A stretch of DNA of 11,836 nt from Paenibacillus sp. UBA6285 (GTDB taxonomy: Bacteria; Bacillota; Bacilli; Paenibacillales; Paenibacillaceae), in the NCBI GenBank assembly GCA_002438345.1, contig DJUJ01000218.1:5678-17513 (forward strand), given 5' to 3'. The notes below the pieces were generated by a model. It did not search any database, was not told where the DNA came from, and saw only the letters and a list, made by a program, of their open reading frames with translations. The translations under genes were made by a program, and so were the position numbers. Below, piece after piece: positions 862-11,836 of this stretch. The number at the start of each line of letters is the position of its first letter. Position 1 is the first letter of the stretch.

Positions 862-894
862 TGTAAAAATCCTCGGAGTCTTGTAAATATCCTC
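862..894 (+). promoter_or_regulatory. Tandem activator-site candidate upstream of the permease operon
   Basis: Two nearly identical 13-mers, TGTAAAAATCCTC (862-874) and TGTAAATATCCTC (882-894), lie in the same orientation exactly 20 bp apart, i.e. about two helical turns. The proximal copy ends 2 bp before the expected -35 position. A matching element sits at the same distance from the -10 of the binding-protein gene (9379-9391). Direct repeats next to a weak -35 are typical of AraC-family activators, and an AraC-type response regulator is encoded at 7759-9363. That this regulator binds here is inference. Confidence 0.7.
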
Positions 895-896
895 TA

Positions 897-925
897 TTCC
901 AGTGGAACCGACCAATTCTTATGAT
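897..925 (+). promoter_or_regulatory. Candidate promoter of the permease-phosphorylase operon (weak -35)
   Basis: TATGAT at 920-925 is a good -10 (5 of 6). The hexamer 17 bp upstream, TTCCAG (897-902), barely resembles TTGACA, which fits a promoter that needs an activator bound at the adjacent repeats. Initiation would fall near 932, giving a leader of about 47 nt. Confidence 0.55.
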
Positions 926-2776: not shown

Positions 2777-5137
2777 GTGATTGAATATAAAGGGTTGAAT
2801 GCGCTCGATGACGGATGGGTGATTGCGGAAACAGAGTTTGACGCTAGATTTTTAGGGAAGTTCGAAACCATTTTTTGTCAGGGGAACGGATATCTTGGGC
2901 TAAGAGCTGCTACAGAGGAGTCCTATCCGGGTGAACGCCGCAACTTGTTTGTTGCAGGAGCGTTTAACCGCTTTGCCAATCAGGAGGTTACAGAGCTTCC
3001 GAATGCCGCAGATATGGTGCAGCTCGAAATCCGTCTGAACGGTAAACCATTTCATTTAGAAAAAGGAAAAATTCACAGCTACCGTCGGGAGCTGGATTTA
3101 CGGCAAGGAGAGCTCCGGCGTGACATCCTCTGGGAGGATGAGCACGGCGATCAGTTTAAGATGACTTTCCTGCGGTTCGTATCGCTAAAGGACCGGCATC
3201 TAATGGGTATGCGGGTGGAAATTACCCCGCTGACGAAATCCGCGGAAATTTTTATTTCTTCCGGTATCAACGGGCAGATGACAAATTCGGGCGCACAGCA
3301 TTTTATAGAAGGTGAGCGGCGGGTGTTTGATAAAGAGCTGCTCCAGCTTACCGCAACGACATCGGAGTCGAATATTGAATTTGTACATACCTGTGTCCAT
3401 CAGATGTATGAGGGGGGTGTACGTCTTACAACTGCGCCAGCTCCGAGCATGGATCGCAGAAGAGTTTCACTAACTTACAAGCTTAAAGCGGAAGTCGGCA
3501 AGTGCATTACGCTGGATAAGGTGGCTTCGGTGCATACGAGTCATGATAAGGAGTGGAGAGATCGGGGGGCCGCGCATCAAGCTTTGCAGGATACCGCCCG
3601 GGAATATCTCAGCAAGAAGGCAGAGAAAGGCTTTGATGTACTTGTTAATGAAAACGAGCAGGCCTGGAAAAGCGTATGGGCCAAAGCCAACATTGAGATC
3701 AAGAGCAACGACGTCTTTGATCAGTTGGCCATCCGTTTTTCACAGTATCATCTGCTTCTGATGACACCTGCTCATGACAGTCGTTTCTCTGTAGGAGCCA
3801 AGGGACTGACAGGAGAGGGATACAAGGGACACGTATTCTGGGACACAGAAATTTTTATTCTGCCATACTTTTTGTATATGGACCCGCAGACAGCCCGTAA
3901 GCTGGTGGAATATCGTTATCACACCTTGAACGGTGCGAGAACAAAAGCGCGTGACAATGGTTATCGCGGCGCGATGTACCCTTGGGAATCCGCAGCAACC
4001 GGCGAGGAAGAGACTCCTGAGTGGGGCCCTGTAGATATCGTTACCGGAAAGCCAACCTTTATTTGGACAGGCAAAATCGAACAGCATATTACAGCGGACG
4101 TGGCATATGGCGTGTGGCATTATTATCAGGCTACCGGTGATCAGGAATATATGGACCGGTACGGATATGAGATTATATTCGAAACAGCGACTTTCTGGGC
4201 AAGCCGGCTGGAGTGGAGCGATAAGGAACAGAAGTATCATATCTGTGATGTGATTGGTCCGGACGAATATAAGGAACATGTCTCTAACAATGCATTCACC
4301 AACTATATGGCCTACTGGAATATGACAAAAGCAATCGAATGCACCCGCAAGCTTATGCAAGCGCAAAGCGATGTTTATTTGACTTTGGAAAGTAAGTTGG
4401 CTCTAACCGAGCGATTGAAGGAATGGGAGGATAAATCCAAGAAGATCTATCTGCCGCAGCCGGATATGCATTCGTTCATCATTCCGCAGGACGATACTTA
4501 TTTGAACAAGCAAATTATTGATCTGGAGAAGTACCGTGATCAGGATCAGGTGGCTTCCATTCTTGCCGACTACAGCATGACCCAGCTCAGTGAAATACAG
4601 GTTTCGAAGCAGGCGGATATTCTCGTTTTGTTTTACTTACTGGAGGACTGGTTCTCTAAAGAGACTAAAGCGGCGAATTGGCATTATTACGAGCCGAAAA
4701 CGTTGCATGACTCTTCGCTCAGCTTATCCACACACAGTATGCTGGCTAGCGATGTCAATGAACTGGAATTGGCTTATGATATGTTTGCCAAGGCAGCCCG
4801 TATTGATTTGGGTACAAACATGCATAGCTGCGATGAAGGTATTCATTCAGCTTCGATTGGCGGCATTTGGAAGGCAGCGATCATGGGTTTTGGCGGGGTT
4901 CGTTCCTGGGAGGGCTCTCTTCGCCTGAACCCGAAACTTCCACAGGCCTGGGAGCGCTTGTCTTTCCCGCTTGCCTGGCAGGGTGAGCGTCTGCAGGTGA
5001 CGGTTACCCGTGGCAAGCTGGAGGTGGAGCGCCTAACTTCAGGATTGGGTGAGCTTACCTTGCTCATTCATGGCCGGGAATACGTGTTGAAGGATCGTAT
5101 CGTTACAGACTTGAAGGAGGCTGAGCGAAGTGAATAA
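2777..5137 (+). CDS. GH65 family inverting alpha-glucoside phosphorylase
   Basis: A 786-residue cytoplasmic enzyme with the full GH65 layout: N-terminal beta-sandwich (about 10-270), linker helices, (alpha/alpha)6 catalytic barrel (about 320-690) and a small C-terminal beta domain. The general acid is predicted as E497 in VIGPDEYKEHVSNNAFTN. The substrate-site motif GHVFWDTEIF has W355 and D356, and EGIHSASIGG near 687-696 forms the phosphate-binding region. These enzymes cleave a glucose disaccharide with phosphate, giving beta-glucose 1-phosphate. Maltose, kojibiose, nigerose, trehalose and related phosphorylases share this fold, and motifs alone do not separate them. The following beta-phosphoglucomutase supports phosphorolysis rather than hydrolysis. 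The start is GTG at 2777 with AGGGGGA (2764-2770) upstream; conserved sequence begins within the first 20 residues. The motif has S in HVSNN, where I would often expect D. Co-expression with the permeases implies imported substrate. Confidence 0.93.
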   Translation: MIEYKGLNALDDGWVIAETEFDARFLGKFETIFCQGNGYLGLRAATEESYPGERRNLFVAGAFNRFANQEVTELPNAADMVQLEIRLNGKPFHLEKGKIHSYRRELDLRQGELRRDILWEDEHGDQFKMTFLRFVSLKDRHLMGMRVEITPLTKSAEIFISSGINGQMTNSGAQHFIEGERRVFDKELLQLTATTSESNIEFVHTCVHQMYEGGVRLTTAPAPSMDRRRVSLTYKLKAEVGKCITLDKVASVHTSHDKEWRDRGAAHQALQDTAREYLSKKAEKGFDVLVNENEQAWKSVWAKANIEIKSNDVFDQLAIRFSQYHLLLMTPAHDSRFSVGAKGLTGEGYKGHVFWDTEIFILPYFLYMDPQTARKLVEYRYHTLNGARTKARDNGYRGAMYPWESAATGEEETPEWGPVDIVTGKPTFIWTGKIEQHITADVAYGVWHYYQATGDQEYMDRYGYEIIFETATFWASRLEWSDKEQKYHICDVIGPDEYKEHVSNNAFTNYMAYWNMTKAIECTRKLMQAQSDVYLTLESKLALTERLKEWEDKSKKIYLPQPDMHSFIIPQDDTYLNKQIIDLEKYRDQDQVASILADYSMTQLSEIQVSKQADILVLFYLLEDWFSKETKAANWHYYEPKTLHDSSLSLSTHSMLASDVNELELAYDMFAKAARIDLGTNMHSCDEGIHSASIGGIWKAAIMGFGGVRSWEGSLRLNPKLPQAWERLSFPLAWQGERLQVTVTRGKLEVERLTSGLGELTLLIHGREYVLKDRIVTDLKEAERSE

Positions 5138-5813
5138 AGAACATCAGGAGATTCAAGCCTTAATTTTTGATCTGGACGGAGTGATTACCGATACGGCGAA
5201 ATATCATTATGAAGCCTGGAAGCAGTTGGCGGAGGAACTGGGTATTCACTTTGACCTAGAATTTAATGAGCAGCTCAAGGGTATCGACCGCATGGCTTCT
5301 CTGGAAAAAATACTGAGTCAACTACCGGACGGCGGTTCATCCTTCACTTTGGAACAAAAACAGGAATGGGCTGAACGGAAGAACAACAACTATCAAGGCC
5401 TGATTCAGAGCGTGGATGAATCGGAAATTTTGCCAGGCATTCTGGAATTGTTTCATGATCTCAAGCAGGCTGGAATACCGATCGGGCTGGCTTCGGCCAG
5501 CCGCAATGCCGGAACACTGCTGCGGCAGTTGAAGGTAGAGTCTTATATTCATGTGATCGCCGATCCGGAAAGCGTGGCTCATGGAAAACCTGCACCGGAT
5601 ATTTTTCTGAAGGCGGCGGAGGCGCTAGGTGTTGACCCCCGTTATTGTGTTGGAGTAGAGGATGCAGAGGCTGGAGTTCAGGCGATAAAAAGTGCGGGGA
5701 TGTTTGCTGTAGGGGTTGGTGATGCAGAGATCCTATCGAAAGCGGATTACATTGTTCCAGAAACATCGAAGCTCTCTCTTTCCGACATCTGGCAGCATAT
5801 GGCCGGTCGCTGA
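5130..5813 (+). CDS. pgmB: Beta-phosphoglucomutase
   Basis: A 227-residue HAD-superfamily mutase that converts beta-glucose 1-phosphate, the product of the GH65 enzyme, to glucose 6-phosphate for glycolysis. Catalytic marks: FDLDGVITDT with nucleophile D14 and general acid/base D16; H26 on the cap hinge; the cap-domain LKGIDR with R54; LASASRNAG (S122-R125) binding phosphate; HGKPAPDIF with K153; and GVEDAEAG with Mg-binding E177 and D178. The helical cap (about 24-95) is of normal size for subfamily beta-PGM. The GTG start at 5130 overlaps the end of the phosphorylase gene by 8 bp, and AAGGAGG (5114-5120) gives the right spacing, so translation is coupled. The pairing with GH65 is a well-known catabolic module. 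This is the last gene of the operon and is followed by a long hairpin. Confidence 0.95.
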   Translation: MNKEHQEIQALIFDLDGVITDTAKYHYEAWKQLAEELGIHFDLEFNEQLKGIDRMASLEKILSQLPDGGSSFTLEQKQEWAERKNNNYQGLIQSVDESEILPGILELFHDLKQAGIPIGLASASRNAGTLLRQLKVESYIHVIADPESVAHGKPAPDIFLKAAEALGVDPRYCVGVEDAEAGVQAIKSAGMFAVGVGDAEILSKADYIVPETSKLSLSDIWQHMAGR

Positions 5814-5835: not shown

Positions 5836-5882
5836 ACTATGTAAGTTGAACGAATTCGTCTTATCCGTTCAGCTTACATAGT
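5836..5882 (+). terminator. Long hairpin after the beta-phosphoglucomutase gene, weak as a terminator
   Basis: ACTATGTAAGTTGAACG (5836-5852) pairs with CGTTCAGCTTACATAGT (5866-5882): 17 bp with a single G-U pair and a 13-nt loop. Only TTT follows, at 5882-5884, so it is not a canonical intrinsic terminator. It may protect the 3' end of the operon mRNA or stop transcription inefficiently before the regulator genes. Confidence 0.65.
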
Positions 5883-5965: not shown

Positions 5966-7762
5966 ATGCGGAAATGGAGTAGGTTTCGGGATCGCAACAT
6001 ACGGCAAAAGCTGTTTTTGACCTACACGCTGTTGATGATTGTTCCTCTCGTGGTGATTAGTATTTACTTCTACATATACGCCATGTCCGTTTTTGAATCC
6101 CGCATTGTGAAATCGTTTCAGGAGACGAATCAGCAGATGGTATCCACTGCGGACTCGTTTGTTAGCAGTATGTTCAAATCTTCGGAGCAGCCTTTTTATG
6201 ACGAAAGACTGATGCAAATTTTGTCGAAGGATTATTCTGCTGAAACCTATGAGACGTTTGAAAAAAGTATGGATTTTCGCTACATAAGTGATAACGTTTT
6301 CAAAGAGTTGATGTCATTTAATCCGGATATTGATTCCATTCTGATCTACCCTGTAAATAGTTCATTAATCTACCGTAGGGGTTATGATACGACTTTCAAT
6401 TATAGATATAGTCCGGTACATGAACCATGGTACCGGACCATTGTGAATAATGCGGAGAGGCCAATTCTGGTCGGCATGCACGAGGAGAAACAGATGTACG
6501 CCAAGCCCCGCCCTGTACTATCTGTAGGCCGTGTACTGGTGGATGTGGGTACCTATCAGAAGCTTGGTGTGCTGCTCGTTAATTTCCGGATGGATAAGCT
6601 TGAGAAGCTATTCAGCGGACTGGGTGACAAACAGGACGTAAACCAGTTCATCGTGGATGATAATGGGATGGTTGTGTTCAGTTCAGATCCGGCCATGATT
6701 GGGATGAAATATAGTCAGGTCATGGCAAAAATGAAGCCGGACAAAGAAAACTACTATGTTGTTCACGATAAGTCCAATGTGTCAGGATGGCAATTCTACA
6801 GCATCGTTCTTCGTGACAAGCTGCTCGCCGAAATTAACCAGATACGCAATTTTTCTACACTGCTGCTTCTTTTGTTGATTATGTTGGGTTTCGTAACAGC
6901 ATACCTTGTATCCGGCAGTATCACCAATCCGATTCGAAGGCTCAATCGGCTGATGCGCAAAGTAGAGAAGGGGGATTTTGATGTTACGGCTCAGCAGGAC
7001 AGTCTGGATGAAGTGGGACATTTGTCGCGTTCCTTTAACCGGATGACTGCCGAAATCAAAGAATTGATTGAGCAAACCAAAATTGAAGAGAAGAAGAAGC
7101 GGAGTGCGGAACTTAATGCGCTGCAAAATCAAATTAATCCGCATTTCATTTATAATACGCTCTCCGTGATTAAATGGATGGCGCAGGCTCAAATGGCGAA
7201 CAACATTACGGAAACGGTAGATGATATGATCAAAGTTCTGTCCTTTTCCACACGTAATACTCAGGAGTTTGTTTCTATTGAAGAAGAAGTGGCCTTTATA
7301 CACAGCTATCTGGAACTGCTGCAGCTCAGGTACTTTAATGTGTTTGATTTTGAAATCGATGTTGCACCGAATGTTTTGGAATGCAGAACGTTAAAATTCA
7401 TGGTGCAGCCTTTTGTGGAGAATGCGGTGTTTCACGGCTTTGCAGAAGATTCCCGTCAATATAACTTGAGTATACGTGTGCAGAGAAAAGGCAACGATAT
7501 TCAGTTTACGATCTCGGATAACGGGATGGGGATCTCGGAGGAACAGCTAAGTAGGCTCTTGCAACAGGAAATGTCGGACGGGCAAACGATGAACTCCATT
7601 GGTGTGGGCAATGTCTCCAAAAGACTAAAGCTTCATTTTGGAGCGAGGTATGGGGTGACCATACATAGCCAAGAAGGGGAAGGAACTACCGTTCTTATCC
7701 TGATACCTGCCATGGAGCATCCTCAGAACCACGCTGGAACAAGGAAAGAGGGATACGCATGA
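5966..7762 (+). CDS. YesM-type sensor histidine kinase
   Basis: A 598-residue membrane kinase. Layout: first membrane segment about 16-40; an extracellular region of about 250 residues (41-294) of the size and style of a double Cache sensor, including the PVHEPWYR motif common in these; second membrane segment about 296-318; HAMP region about 318-372 (SGSITNPIRRLNRLM onward); His_kinase domain with phospho-acceptor H393 in INPHFIYNTL; and HATPase with N-box E485/N486 (FVENAVFHG), D518 in DNGMGI, and the G2 loop G546-N549 (GVGNVSKRL). All key residues are present. It should phosphorylate the regulator encoded next, whose gene overlaps it by ATGA. Such pairs usually govern adjacent carbohydrate transporters. 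Its signal could be the sugar itself or the sugar-loaded lipoprotein; the sequence does not decide. The ATG at 5966 has a strong ribosome binding site at 5948-5957. Confidence 0.94.
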   Translation: MRKWSRFRDRNIRQKLFLTYTLLMIVPLVVISIYFYIYAMSVFESRIVKSFQETNQQMVSTADSFVSSMFKSSEQPFYDERLMQILSKDYSAETYETFEKSMDFRYISDNVFKELMSFNPDIDSILIYPVNSSLIYRRGYDTTFNYRYSPVHEPWYRTIVNNAERPILVGMHEEKQMYAKPRPVLSVGRVLVDVGTYQKLGVLLVNFRMDKLEKLFSGLGDKQDVNQFIVDDNGMVVFSSDPAMIGMKYSQVMAKMKPDKENYYVVHDKSNVSGWQFYSIVLRDKLLAEINQIRNFSTLLLLLLIMLGFVTAYLVSGSITNPIRRLNRLMRKVEKGDFDVTAQQDSLDEVGHLSRSFNRMTAEIKELIEQTKIEEKKKRSAELNALQNQINPHFIYNTLSVIKWMAQAQMANNITETVDDMIKVLSFSTRNTQEFVSIEEEVAFIHSYLELLQLRYFNVFDFEIDVAPNVLECRTLKFMVQPFVENAVFHGFAEDSRQYNLSIRVQRKGNDIQFTISDNGMGISEEQLSRLLQQEMSDGQTMNSIGVGNVSKRLKLHFGARYGVTIHSQEGEGTTVLILIPAMEHPQNHAGTRKEGYA

Positions 7763-9363
7763 AAATCATGATTGTGGACGACGAGTCCTTTATCCGAATG
7801 AATTTTAAGACATTTGTGGACTGGAAACATCATGGCTATTACCTAGTAGGCGAAGCTACAAACGGCAGAGAGGCTTTGGAGAAAATAGATGAGCTTCATC
7901 CGGATGTGGTTTTTTTAGATATCCGAATGCCACTGATGGATGGGCTTGAGGTTCTAAGGCAGCTCCGGCACGCCAAACATTCCTGTAAAGTTATTATTCT
8001 CAGCAGCCATAATGAGTTTGAGTATGCCCAAGAGGCGCTTAGGCTAGGTGCATGCGATTATATTCATAAACCGAATCTGACCCAGTCCGCTGTATTTGAA
8101 GCGTTGGAGCGTGTCCGGACACAGGTAAATCATCAGCCTGTGGGGGATCATCTTGTTTCCTTACAGCAAAATGTGGAGAAGAACCGGAATGAGTTGAAAA
8201 CGCTTTTTTTTCGGGATTTAGCGGTTGGTGTTGTTCGTCATGAGTGGGAAATTGAGCAAAAGACAAAGCTGTACGATCTGAAGCTGAAACAGCCCAATGT
8301 GCTCTGCATCGTTATGTTGATTGATCAGTATGACAAGGTGAAGGAACGTTACAATAAGGGAATGGAGCATTTACTCGGGTTCTCGATCCTGAATATTTTG
8401 CAAGAAGTGCTTAATCGGTACAGCGAGCTAGAGCTGTTTCTGATGAGTCCGAACGAGCTGGTTATTATAAAAACGTATTCCGGCATCAGAAGTATGAATG
8501 AGATTCTGGAAGAACGCTGGGGACTCATCCGTAAAATTGAAAAGACATTGAAGCAGTTTCTGAACATACAAGTCAGTTTTCTTATCAGCGGGCTGCACGC
8601 CCGTCTGCTTGATATTCCTAAAGCTTATCATGAAGCCCAGGAATCGGCCGAAATGCTATTTTATGAAGATCGAAGCAACGTTGTTGTCTACGAACCAGGC
8701 AGCATCAAGGAATTGAATGATAAGGCATCGTTCACTCTGTTTGAACAGCGCATCCGCAAGGAAATGGACGAAAAGAACGTATCTTCTGCTATCTCCATAG
8801 TTCATGAGATGTTTGCCGCGATCAAGGAGAAGAGATCTTTGGGACGTCATGCCACTTTGGAAATGTGCGTGAATTTGCACTGCCAGATTCAGTCCCACAT
8901 GAAGGAGGACAGCGGCGAGGAAGACTATAACGGGATGCAGGAAATCATGTCAGCCGAGCGTTTGGAGCATCTTCACCTGCTGCTGATCCAGGAGCTGGAG
9001 AGTCTGCAAGAGAGTTATACGGATGCGGCCACATCTACGAACTACAAGATTAAGAGGGTCATTGATTATATTCACCAGAATTACAATCAAGATTTGACAC
9101 TGAATGAGCTAGCCGGTTATGTCGGTCTGAACAACAGCTATCTGAGCCGTATCTTTAAGGAGCAAACCGGTTCTATGCTGATTCCATTTATCAACGGCTA
9201 TCGTGTGAAAAAGTCTCTAGAGCTACTTAAAGAAGGAAAACTGAAAACGTATGAGATCGCGGAAAAGGTAGGGTTTAACAGTATTGACAACTACTATATC
9301 AGCTTTAAGAAGATCTATGGGCTCCCTCCGAACGAATACCGAAAGACTAGCATGGGAAAGTAA
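7759..9363 (+). CDS. YesN-type response regulator with AraC-family DNA-binding domain
   Basis: A 534-residue transcription factor. The receiver domain occupies about 1-120, with acidic pocket D7/D8, phospho-acceptor D54 in VVFLDIRMPLMDG, the switch residue in IILSS, and the conserved lysine in DYIHKP. A long middle region (about 125-425) of unassigned helices and strands is typical of this type. The C-terminal AraC domain starts near 428 (NYKIKRVIDYIHQNY), with first helix-turn-helix TLNELAGYVGLNNSYLSRIF and second YEIAEKVGFNSIDNYYISFK, ending GLPPNEYRK. Both helices are intact. The ATG overlaps the kinase stop (ATGA), so expression is coupled. AraC-family activators bind tandem half sites next to -35 elements, which is the layout at 862-894 and 9359-9391. 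The last codons of this gene form part of the upstream, degenerate copy of that element. Control of the flanking transport genes is inferred. Confidence 0.94.
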   Translation: MKIMIVDDESFIRMNFKTFVDWKHHGYYLVGEATNGREALEKIDELHPDVVFLDIRMPLMDGLEVLRQLRHAKHSCKVIILSSHNEFEYAQEALRLGACDYIHKPNLTQSAVFEALERVRTQVNHQPVGDHLVSLQQNVEKNRNELKTLFFRDLAVGVVRHEWEIEQKTKLYDLKLKQPNVLCIVMLIDQYDKVKERYNKGMEHLLGFSILNILQEVLNRYSELELFLMSPNELVIIKTYSGIRSMNEILEERWGLIRKIEKTLKQFLNIQVSFLISGLHARLLDIPKAYHEAQESAEMLFYEDRSNVVVYEPGSIKELNDKASFTLFEQRIRKEMDEKNVSSAISIVHEMFAAIKEKRSLGRHATLEMCVNLHCQIQSHMKEDSGEEDYNGMQEIMSAERLEHLHLLLIQELESLQESYTDAATSTNYKIKRVIDYIHQNYNQDLTLNELAGYVGLNNSYLSRIFKEQTGSMLIPFINGYRVKKSLELLKEGKLKTYEIAEKVGFNSIDNYYISFKKIYGLPPNEYRKTSMGK

Positions 9364-9391
9364 AAAATCACAAAGATATGTAAAGATCCTC
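9359..9391 (+). promoter_or_regulatory. Tandem activator-site candidate upstream of the binding-protein gene
   Basis: TGTAAAGATCCTC at 9379-9391 differs at one base from each of the two copies before the permease operon (862-874 and 882-894). Exactly 20 bp upstream, AGTAAAAAATCAC (9359-9371) matches 862-874 at 9 of 13 positions and overlaps the stop codon of the response regulator. Spacing to the -10 is the same as at the permease operon. I infer the same activator binds both places. Confidence 0.65.
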
Positions 9392-9393
9392 TG

Positions 9394-9422
9394 TTTGCTC
9401 TCGAATGCTGTATAGCTAAGAT
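9394..9422 (+). promoter_or_regulatory. Candidate promoter of the binding-protein gene (weak -35)
   Basis: TAAGAT (9417-9422) is a fair -10; TTTGCT (9394-9399), 17 bp upstream, matches TTGACA at only 3 positions. The -10 begins 38 bp after the start of the proximal repeat, identical to the permease promoter, and both read TA-GATG-A across the hexamer. The predicted leader is about 45 nt. Confidence 0.55.
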
Positions 9423-9474: not shown

Positions 9475-10749
9475 ATGAGAAAGAAGTCAGTCCTGTTATT
9501 GTGCTCTCTGATGTTGATGCTGTCTACGGCAGCGTGTGGGGCCAAATCCAATACCGGTAACTCTGGCAACGGAGCTTCAGACAACGCTGGAGCGGCAAAG
9601 ACGGAGAAGCAAGAAACCGTCGAAGTCACGATGGCATACTGGGCCAATGCGTCCGAACAAAAGAACTTCGAATTTATGGTTGACGGCATTGATAAAGAAT
9701 ATCCGAACATTAAAATTAAGATGCAAATGTATCCAACCAGTGATGAGTTTTGGAAAGCGGTTCCAACGGCGATTGCTGCCGGGGTAGGGCCTGATATCAT
9801 TGCTATGTCGGATGAAGGAAACTATGAGTATATCAAAAAAGGCGTACTCTCTCCACTAGATGAGATGATCGACAAAGTGGGGTTTGATAAAGACCGCATT
9901 ACTGGATCGCTGTACAAAGGCTGGACAGATGATAATAAACTTTATGGAATTCCTTACGATTCTTCTACTTCTATGATGGCGATCAACAAAGAGATGTTTG
10001 AAAAATCAGGAATTACTAAATATCCGGAAACGATGGATGAGGTCGTTGAGCTGGCCAAAGCCATGACTAAGGATGGTGTGAAAGGTATTATCGGCAGTAT
10101 CGATCCATTTCACATCACTCAATATGTGCACGCTTTCGGCGGAGACTGGGGCTTCGGAAAAACGATTAATTCTAAAGAAAACGTAGCTGGCGTGCAGTTC
10201 TTCGTGGACCTTTTCCTCAAAAATAAGGTTGCTATTGCTCCGATCGAAGTAGGGGCTCCATGGGATGGCGAAGTATTCAGTCAAGAAAAAGGGGCTATGT
10301 CCACGGCTGGTCCATGGTATGTAGGTCATTTGAAAGAAGCTAACCCTGACATGGGATTGATTGCTCTGCCGATGCCTAAAGGTACGGTAGAGGCACAAAG
10401 CGCTTACTCACACGGCTTATCGATTCTGGACGGCAGCAAGCATAAGGAAGAAGCTATGCAAGTGATCAAGTATGCGCTGCGTGATGAAGCACAATTGAAT
10501 GCGATTGAGGCGGTTGGATATTCACCGTCAGTATCTTCTCTGCTTCCTAAATATTTGGAGAAGAATCCTGAATTGAAAGCAGTATTCGACAATATGGAAA
10601 AAGTCGGTATGCCGTTTGCTTATCCTGAACAAACCAAAGCGTTTCATGCCGATCTGCTTAAAGGCGTAGAGGAAATCATCTTTAAGCAAGATGGATTGAC
10701 GGTTGAAAAGTTGCTGAATGATCTCCAAAGTAAATACGGAGAAAACTAG
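9475..10749 (+). CDS. Carbohydrate ABC transporter substrate-binding lipoprotein
   Basis: A 424-residue extracytoplasmic sugar-binding protein. The N-terminus is a lipoprotein signal: charged RKK, hydrophobic core VLLLCSLMLMLSTAA, then C21, to be lipidated after cleavage. The lipobox is weak at -3 (T-A-A-C) but ordinary for such proteins. A Gly/Ser/Asn-rich tether (22-43) precedes the mature domain. That domain shows family-1 binding-protein features: VTMAYWAN at the start of the first strand, IAAGVGPDIIAMSDEGNYEYIKKGVLSPLDE, YGIPYDSSTSMMAINKEMFEKSGI, and a late GPWYVGHLK. The gene is apart from its permeases, behind the regulators, with its own promoter and followed by a strong terminator, which would allow the high expression usual for binding proteins. 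No other binding protein is in the window, so partnership with the permeases at 979-2745 is the natural inference. The ATG has AAAGGGG upstream. Confidence 0.93.
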   Translation: MRKKSVLLLCSLMLMLSTAACGAKSNTGNSGNGASDNAGAAKTEKQETVEVTMAYWANASEQKNFEFMVDGIDKEYPNIKIKMQMYPTSDEFWKAVPTAIAAGVGPDIIAMSDEGNYEYIKKGVLSPLDEMIDKVGFDKDRITGSLYKGWTDDNKLYGIPYDSSTSMMAINKEMFEKSGITKYPETMDEVVELAKAMTKDGVKGIIGSIDPFHITQYVHAFGGDWGFGKTINSKENVAGVQFFVDLFLKNKVAIAPIEVGAPWDGEVFSQEKGAMSTAGPWYVGHLKEANPDMGLIALPMPKGTVEAQSAYSHGLSILDGSKHKEEAMQVIKYALRDEAQLNAIEAVGYSPSVSSLLPKYLEKNPELKAVFDNMEKVGMPFAYPEQTKAFHADLLKGVEEIIFKQDGLTVEKLLNDLQSKYGEN

Positions 10750-10758
10750 TTATCGAGC

Positions 10759-10797
10759 GGTTGGACTTTGCCATAACCAAAGTCCAACCATTTTTTT
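10759..10797 (+). terminator. Strong rho-independent terminator after the binding-protein gene
   Basis: GGTTGGACTTTG (10759-10770) and CAAAGTCCAACC (10778-10789) form a perfect 12-bp stem with a 7-nt loop, followed by seven T (10791-10797). Only 30 bp separate its T run from the next start codon, so the downstream gene probably depends on read-through. Confidence 0.95.
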
Positions 10798-10827: not shown

Positions 10828-11836
10828 ATGAAAAGGTCGCTTAACAGTGTCATTTCAAAGATTGTACTCATGTGCTTGTTCATAACATCCATCGGTCCCG
10901 TGTACTCTATGCAGGCAGCACCCGCAGCACCCGCTCCTAAGATTAATGAAGGCGTGGTCAATGGCGAGTTTCCACTGAATTTAACACAAACGGGGGATAT
11001 CGACTGGCTGCATTTTAAAGCGGATAACTTGAATCAGCTTCAACGAATTCAGAAGGCAGGCCCAAACTCGGTCACCTTCAGTGTATATGGGGATACGGCA
11101 ACTGAGGGCAAATTGAACAGAGGCACCGATGCCGATTACATGTCCTATACCTGGAGCAACGGTATGCCAGGATTTGAATATGGTTTAAATGACACGGGGA
11201 CAGGTCTATTTTATCCAAAGTCCAGTCGAGATAAAGGGAGCTATAACAATGTTGGCTGGGATATTGAAGTAGCAGCGCAGCCGCAGGATTCCACCCTAGT
11301 ATTTGGTCTTGGGTTGTGGCAAGCGGATGTAGATCTTAACATCTATACTGATGATGTACTTTCGGTAACCCGAAACGTCTACGGCGATTCTGTTTCCAAG
11401 AACTATAAGTATCAAGTCAACGTGCCTGCTAATGTGAAGCTGAAAATTGAAGGGCGTTTGACAAAGGTTGTAGCGAAGAACGGAAATATGTCATTCTCTG
11501 GACTTGCTTTAAGCAGTATGGCACTTGCGGATAAATTGGCGCTGCAAAATGAATACAACAGAGTTAGCAATATGACGCAAGGTCTTTATACAAATGAGAC
11601 GTGGCAGGTTCTGGTGAATACGCTGGCTGCTGCCAAGCTTGTACTTGATCGAACAGAGGCAACCCAGCCAGAAGTTGACAGCGCTATCAATGCTTTGGTA
11701 GCGGCGCAGGTTGGTCTGGTGAAGAGAGAATCGAACATTGTAATCGATTTTACGGATAAAGCGTTCAAGGAGTATACTTTCGGTGCTAAAACCGATCAAC
11801 AGGACAGATATCAAACCTTCACAGTGAAGGAAGGTC
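10828..11836 (+). CDS. Secreted multi-domain protein with FIVAR module, N-terminal part (gene runs off the window)
   Basis: The first 336 codons are open to the window edge; no stop is reached. A signal peptide is evident: basic KR, hydrophobic core IVLMCLFITSIGPV, likely cleavage near the MQAAPA stretch (residues 28-33), then a Pro/Ala linker. Residues about 40-230 look like a beta-sandwich module. TGDIDWLHF (55-63) and LVFGLGLWQADVDLNIYTDD (157-176) resemble a domain I know from secreted Paenibacillus glycan-acting proteins, there reading roughly GDLDWAHWG and YVGVWSA. Residues about 235-298 are a FIVAR repeat (LYTNETWQVLVNTLAAAKLV then ATQPEVDSAINAL). From 302 a further domain begins (IVIDFTDKAFKEYTF) that I cannot assign. 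The ATG at 10828 has a perfect AAGGAGGT at 10809-10816, 11 nt away. A role as the extracellular glycanase or binding protein feeding the importer is plausible, but no catalytic motif is in view. Confidence 0.85.
   Translation, partial: MKRSLNSVISKIVLMCLFITSIGPVYSMQAAPAAPAPKINEGVVNGEFPLNLTQTGDIDWLHFKADNLNQLQRIQKAGPNSVTFSVYGDTATEGKLNRGTDADYMSYTWSNGMPGFEYGLNDTGTGLFYPKSSRDKGSYNNVGWDIEVAAQPQDSTLVFGLGLWQADVDLNIYTDDVLSVTRNVYGDSVSKNYKYQVNVPANVKLKIEGRLTKVVAKNGNMSFSGLALSSMALADKLALQNEYNRVSNMTQGLYTNETWQVLVNTLAAAKLVLDRTEATQPEVDSAINALVAAQVGLVKRESNIVIDFTDKAFKEYTFGAKTDQQDRYQTFTVKEG

Follow-up and report, generated by a model that had tools for sequence, protein, structure and literature searches.

The locus and its genes

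The window, as the whole 11,836-nucleotide stretch of Paenibacillus DNA analysed here is called, holds a sugar-use cluster in which all genes lie on the + strand:

979-1929, +: ABC sugar permease of the MalF/UgpA type (Pfam cut-off reached, NCBIfam names below cut-offs)
1930-2745, +: ABC sugar permease of the MalG/UgpE type (Pfam cut-off reached, NCBIfam names below cut-offs)
2777-5137, +: enzyme of the GH65 alpha-glucoside phosphorylase type (kojibiose phosphorylase 3wiq is the closest solved structure)
5130-5813, +: beta-phosphoglucomutase (TIGR01990, 259.5 bits against a cut-off of 189.4)
5966-7762, +: YesM-type sensor kinase (dCache, HAMP, His_kinase and HATPase domains by Pfam)
7759-9363, +: YesN-type response regulator (receiver plus AraC-type HTH), proposed owner of the sites described below
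9475-10749, +: sugar-binding lipoprotein-like protein of an ABC importer
10828-11836, +: 5' part of the gene for a large secreted SLH-anchored protein (1616 amino acids in G001)

The regulator encoded between the two transport units, recognized as YesN-type in the first-pass annotation, is shown by its Pfam domains to be a response regulator of the AraC type (PF00072 at 103.6 bits, PF12833 at 59.2 and PF00165 at 45.0, all above cut-off), and a sensor kinase gene lies next to it. In the kinase the His_kinase, HAMP and HATPase domains also score above cut-off, and dCache barely so (48.2 against 45). A ranking of PDB entries against the GH65 enzyme places kojibiose phosphorylase 3wiq first at 494.7 bits, the next entry scoring 357.9, and two NCBIfam models matched it, both below cut-off. 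From this kinship to 3wiq it may be guessed that the sugar imported and degraded is perhaps an alpha-glucoside, maybe kojibiose. The gene reaching the right edge of the window continues in a related locus (L050:1458-6308), where it encodes a secreted protein of 1616 amino acids. Pfam recognizes in this protein only SLH, aBig_2 and FIVAR domains and no known catalytic domain, NCBIfam matches are weak, partial and below cut-off, and those in the PDB are confined to S-layer parts and an arabinanase tail region; as a member of a glucoside-use cluster, it is a possible candidate for a novel glycoside hydrolase. Terminator-like hairpins lie before the permease promoter (785-812) and in the gap separating the binding-protein gene from that of the SLH-anchored protein (10759-10789), and a long inverted repeat (about 5836-5882) is found 3' of the mutase gene.

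Tandem half-sites at two promoters

Two promoters of the cluster, preceding the first permease gene and the binding-protein gene, share a tandem element, the parts of which are given here together with their state in 14 orthologous loci outside the window (L050-L057 and L166-L171):

862-874, +: distal half-site TGTAAAAATCCTC of the permease-operon promoter (exact in 12/14 other loci, one mismatch at the first base in 2/14)
882-894, +: proximal half-site TGTAAATATCCTC of the permease-operon promoter (exact in 13/14 other loci, one mismatch in 1/14)
897-902, +: weak -35 TTCCAG adjoining the proximal half-site (2/6 consensus)
920-925, +: -10 TATGAT, 38 bp past the proximal start (TATGAT in 14/14 other loci)
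942-960, +: conserved dyad or hairpin TACGAAC-AAGGG-GTTCGTA in the 5' UTR of the first permease gene, immediately ahead of its ribosome-binding site
9359-9371, +: degenerate distal half-site AGTAAAAAATCAC, overlapping the regulator stop codon at 9361-9363 (3-5 mismatches in 12/14 other loci, two mismatches in L057 and L166)
9379-9391, +: proximal half-site TGTAAAGATCCTC of the binding-protein promoter (14/14 other loci exact to TGTAAANATCCTC)
9394-9399, +: weak -35 TTTGCT (3/6 consensus)
9417-9422, +: -10 TAAGAT, 38 bp past the proximal start (in the 14 other loci TAAGAT 11 times, TATGAT twice, TAATAT once)

The first-pass annotation had described this arrangement as two copies 20 bp apart with a -10-like hexamer starting 38 bp past the start of the proximal copy. 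Its coordinates proved exact at both promoters (862-874, 882-894 and TATGAT at 920-925; 9359-9371, 9379-9391 and TAAGAT at 9417-9422), and the spacing and register are borne out at both. The -35 hexamers, which it had called poor, agree with the consensus at two (TTCCAG) and three (TTTGCT) of six positions, and both are separated from the -10 by a 17-bp spacer. Since the proximal copies adjoin these poor hexamers (the copies reach to 894 and 9391, and the hexamers TTCCAG and TTTGCT begin at 897 and 9394, respectively), the promoters look activator-dependent; neither is among the 27 promoters returned by a consensus scan of the window. The copy at 9359, rightly termed degenerate, differs at 4 of 12 specified bases and carries its ATC block one base late, and in the window its beginning (9359-9363) overlaps the last codon and stop of the regulator (AAG TAA A). 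In the genomes G029 and G336 the corresponding half-site lies past the regulator stop and is a better match.

Exact matches to the motif within the window are limited to the three good copies. When up to three mismatches are allowed, 15 matches appear against a shuffle mean of 11.5, a number reached by 37 of 200 shuffles, and single half-sites are uninformative because such a mismatch-tolerant scan of the window stays near background. The signal thus lies in exactness and in the tandem arrangement, a loosened single half-site being close to background.

Conservation in orthologous loci

In the 14 other loci the kinase, regulator and binding-protein genes are adjacent, with the permeases upstream. 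Conservation of the motif, on which the proposal of an operator hinged, is complete at this level: all 28 promoters of these loci (before the first permease gene and before the binding-protein gene) keep the tandem as two direct repeats, the upstream one 20 bp, or about two helical turns, from the proximal copy, and in 28/28 a TAnnAT hexamer starts exactly 38 bp past the proximal start. The proximal copy, exact in 27/28, is the better kept of the two half-sites. The distal copy depends on the promoter, being exact in 12/14 and one base off in 2/14 loci before the permeases, and off at 3-5 of 12 specified bases in 12/14 before the binding-protein gene (two off in L057 and L166), so that 12/28 orthologous promoters have degenerate distal copies. 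The common spacing and register are seen at 33 sites, comprising the 28 orthologous promoters, the two of the window, one in a relic of the locus in genome G396 and two unlinked to the cluster, the last three being described below.

Information content was counted over 25 non-redundant sites, with the near-identical L050-L053 left out. Mean values per column are 1.83 bits for the proximal block (17 columns), 1.59 for the distal block and 1.80 for the -10, against 0.23 to the left of the sites, 0.43 between the proximal block and the -10, and 0.35 to the right. At the binding-protein promoter taken alone the contrast is weaker, since its left flank is regulator coding sequence, itself conserved at 1.02 bits. 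Judged from these alignments, the tandem pattern is not a product of chance.

The conserved block of the 882-894 half-site extends into the -35 region. This would suit a reading in which no dedicated regulator acts on the repeats, these being an UP-type or basal promoter element or a leftover of duplication. Such a reading is highly improbable: apart from the two unlinked sites, a search of 15 genomes found no clean tandem at other promoters, and the element has been kept in four genera together with the regulator, or in one instance in the relic of the regulator's locus.

A second conserved element of the permease promoter region is the 942-960 dyad, present in the window, in 12/14 other orthologous loci and in the G396 relic, and absent from L057 (G029) and L166 (G336). 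In L055 one C-G pair of the dyad has become A-T. It stays at the ribosome-binding site even though the -10 is sometimes 22-23 and sometimes 57-58 nt away, and it is an element separate from the tandem, putatively a hairpin or a second operator.

Co-occurrence with the regulator

The tandem sites follow the regulator over considerable divergence. In the nearest of the genomes compared, G001, the regulator is 99% identical, and the sites persist where it is only 45% (G029) or 49% (G336) identical. By part, identity in G029 and G336 is 64% and 72% for the HTH, 53% and 68% for the receiver, and 37% and 35% for the middle portion, the G336 receiver thus being almost as conserved as its HTH. Six paralogous regulators from genomes devoid of the tandem (L007-L010, L012 and L014, of which L007 and L008 each carry one in-frame stop) have an HTH identity of 32-38%. 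They come from a set of ten, of which L006, L011, L013 and L015 were left out on account of misframed translations.

In a genus sample of 100 genomes, an orthologue of the regulator (E<=1e-110) was found in eight, and exactly these eight have the tandem (<=2 mismatches), which none of the other 92 shows. An order sample of 392 genomes yielded orthologues (E<=1e-85) in 12 and the tandem in 14, namely all 12 plus G396 and G219; that is, 12/12 genomes with an orthologue against 2/380 without (Fisher 3.9e-21), where an orthologue could be missed since the best 3 candidates per genome were scored in the order-wide search. A reversed-pattern control gave no match in either the genus or the order scan. 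A peptide-pattern scan of named genomes, run with two patterns that were too general, gave among the 80 loci listed a single one that by identity resembles an orthologue (L059, P. mangrovi, 73%), and by its position this is the locus already counted in G082.

The two genomes with a tandem and without a detected orthologue are of different kinds. G396 (L172) retains the tandem and the first permease, while its second permease is broken and the other seven of nine query proteins were not found in 19.5 kb; no regulator orthologue was detected at E<=1e-85 among the best 3 candidates scored. It looks like a decaying relic of the cluster. The G219 match, with two mismatches, beside a palindromic stretch and with 0/9 query proteins within 12 kb, was set aside as chance.

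Co-occurrence alone is no proof of pairing, since regulator gene and cluster sites are in physical linkage, and what the test mainly shows is how seldom the motif is found where the cluster is missing. Stronger support comes from the two unlinked sites and from the lack of other clean targets.

Specificity and unlinked sites

In the 6.1 Mb of G001 the exact 13-mer occurs four times, three times at the locus and once elsewhere. The fourth match was set aside because, judged by its surroundings, it is the antisense strand of an atpE-like start region with its ribosome-binding site. At one mismatch the count rises to 48 against 33 for the reversed control, half-sites alone again being near background. 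A search for the tandem itself at <=3 mismatches in 15 genomes gave 41 matches, of which 28 belong to the cluster or the G396 relic, two are the unlinked sites, and 11 are scattered (one at two and ten at three mismatches, matched on half-sites and spacing) against seven in the reversed control. The motif, which commonness at unrelated promoters would have disqualified, is therefore near-restricted to this regulon in the 15 genomes, where no clean tandem was found beyond the cluster and the two unlinked sites.

Both unlinked sites agree with the cluster sites in spacing (20 bp) and register (38 bp) and occur in genomes bearing the regulator. The site in G015 lies about 28.6 kb from the cluster, before a gene for a GH97 protein with NPCBM modules, which is followed by genes for GH31 and SLH proteins. 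That in G082 is on another contig, before the gene for an Fn3/Big_2 protein, followed by those for a GH31-CBM6 protein and an SLH protein. Judging by gene order, each set would form one operon, and the sites fit a regulon for the extracellular breakdown of an alpha-glucan or alpha-glucoside. The cluster of G082 (L054) gave no match for GH65 or beta-phosphoglucomutase, while the unlinked gene set containing GH31 bears the operator.

These data also bear on the possibility that the repeats are bound by some other, unlinked regulator, which would serve the cluster as well, the local YesN protein working elsewhere. The regulator gene and the cluster sites, being linked, would co-occur regardless of which protein binds, and local binding is something we only infer. 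An unlinked regulator is nonetheless quite improbable, as 378 of the 380 order genomes devoid of an orthologue are also devoid of the tandem, the exceptions being one relic and one chance-like match, and as a broader regulator should have other targets, where the 15 genomes gave only two, both before genes of the alpha-glycosidase type.

As for further layers of control, inspection by eye of 12 loci (the window and 11 others) found no tandem copy before yesM that would indicate autoregulation. A loose scan with a cre consensus detected no catabolite repression site at either of the two promoters of the window. Full cre-like matches lie a few bases inside the kinase gene in two other loci (L167:8198 and L168:8302), with a one-mismatch counterpart at L055:7573, and could be either chance or catabolite control of yesMN. 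In G015 a cre-like site with one mismatch (L174:6439-6454) is directly beside the extra tandem operator, suggesting added catabolite control in that genome.

A proposed model of activation

Both tandem elements are very probably operators of the YesN-type response regulator encoded at 7759-9363, through which it would activate both operons. The first-pass annotation had arrived at the same owner, and its proposal is supported by the conservation of the element, its co-occurrence with the regulator and its near-restriction to this regulon, from which we infer the binding itself. AraC-type activators place two DNA-binding domains on direct repeats, the proximal one contacting polymerase at the -35. 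By analogy, two DNA-binding domains of the regulator would sit head-to-tail on half-sites TGTAAAnATCCTC, 20 bp or about two helical turns apart, so that the proximal domain, beside a weak -35, would probably recruit RNA polymerase to the -10 starting 38 bp from the proximal site. The membrane kinase (5966-7762) may sense an extracellular alpha-glucoside and bring about phosphorylation of the regulator, which in its phosphorylated form would turn on the operon for the permeases, the GH65 enzyme and the phosphoglucomutase together with the binding-protein operon. In two relatives the regulator would additionally turn on secreted GH97/GH31 enzymes.

The AraC family includes activators and repressors. 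It is conceivable on that account that the local regulator binds and represses, or that it activates one promoter and represses the other. This is unlikely, as the sites lie upstream of weak -35 hexamers and do not cover the -10 or the start, and as, for three of the five AraC-type two-component systems described in Caldicellulosiruptor bescii, an upstream position of tandem sites is taken as a sign of activation (PMC8579813). Activation by the local regulator is thus the reading retained here.

A second YesN family and operator geometry

A survey of other YesN-type genes in G001, G015 and G029, covering 38 loci, identified a second YesN family (57-84% mutual identity), in which ATGAGAATTTT-type repeats 21 bp apart precede a gene for a sugar-binding-protein-like product. 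Its tandem sites are:

L189:2641, -: ATGAGAATTTT tandem site
L200:10255, +: ATGAGAATTTT tandem site
L209:2243, -: ATGAGAATTTT tandem site

In 3/3 genomes CATAAT starts 37 bp past the proximal ATGAGAATTTT copy. The -10 of the window starts 37 bp past the G of GTAAA. The letters of the two families differ, and their geometry nearly agrees when the G of GTAAA in the one and the A of ATGAG in the other are taken as starting points of the register. Paenibacillus YesN regulators may conceivably share an operator geometry in which half-sites 20-22 bp apart, with differing letters, have a proximal start 37 bp before the -10, a tentative generalization that draws on the window regulator (33 sites) and one unrelated YesN protein (three genomes). 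Its odds are lowered by the fact that a 20-bp spacing is not enriched at the paralogous loci: a blind count over the 38 loci saw four cases where 4.5 were expected, with 18, 19, 21-23 and 32 bp raised. When a -10 was required, 21 bp was the highest and 17 and 28 bp were raised too, in counts that are not independent. The blind spacing histograms are therefore only suggestive with regard to a shared geometry.

Were the geometry shared, its register could decode the operators of many orphan YesMN pairs and yield an HTH recognition code. Such regulators are numerous in Paenibacillus-type genomes: places related to the window regulator at E<=1e-12 number 63, 114 and 73 in three genomes (other receiver and AraC proteins included, with the best 150 candidates scored in each). 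The one considered here has a plausible sugar, a small regulon and an assigned operator that is conserved and keeps its register exactly, and the prediction is testable with one purified protein and two promoters.

Comparison with known systems

In Escherichia coli, AraC activates from araI1-I2, where a pair of direct half-sites is spaced by about two turns and the -35 is the position of the proximal member. It differs from the window regulator in being a one-component, sugar-binding protein, in the letters it recognizes and in its 21-bp spacing. The first-pass annotation had considered the assignment of a motif to a named regulator a rarity among the YesMN pairs of Paenibacillus, and this fits the literature found: no published operator of a Paenibacillus YesN regulator was encountered in the open-licence literature, a scope outside which most subscription papers fall. 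A review of hemicellulase regulation names neither YesN nor Paenibacillus in its main text (PMC10766802). For the Paenibacillus AraC-family protein MsmR1, the published account gives two motifs that contain neither palindromes nor inverted repeats (PMC9722767).

Among regulators of similar build, XydR of the XydS/XydR pair in Clostridium cellulolyticum, a 532-residue protein with a receiver and an AraC HTH, resembles the window regulator and is described as an activator of glycoside-hydrolase genes, its effector domain binding target upstream regions in EMSA (PMC3572039). The account of its targets lists short sequences shared before two of them with no settled consensus, unlike the clear and conserved one of the window (PMC3572039). 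YesN of Streptococcus pneumoniae shares the name and type of the window regulator, and its motif was likewise sought through the upstream regions of orthologues, where, in contrast to the window, no clear repeat motif was identified (PMC11034029).

Further parallels come from C. bescii, for which the description of the regulatory network predicts tandem sites for AraC-type two-component regulators of sugar transporters, BxgRS among them (PMC8579813). As with BxgRS, CUT1 sugar ABC genes of the window accompany an AraC-type response regulator with predicted tandem-repeat sites, and, as in three of the five C. bescii systems, the sites are upstream of promoter elements, an arrangement for which activation was predicted there (PMC8579813). 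The regulators and sugars are others, however, and the C. bescii tandem repeats have large spacers, a comparison made at the level of published description (PMC8579813). The kojibiose cluster of that organism (pgmB-kojP, kojEFG) is moreover assigned in the same description to the LacI-type KojR, unlike the window (PMC8579813). Tandem sites for AraC-type two-component regulators having thus already been predicted, the operator proposed here is a new example of the kind, and an unusually clean and strict one.
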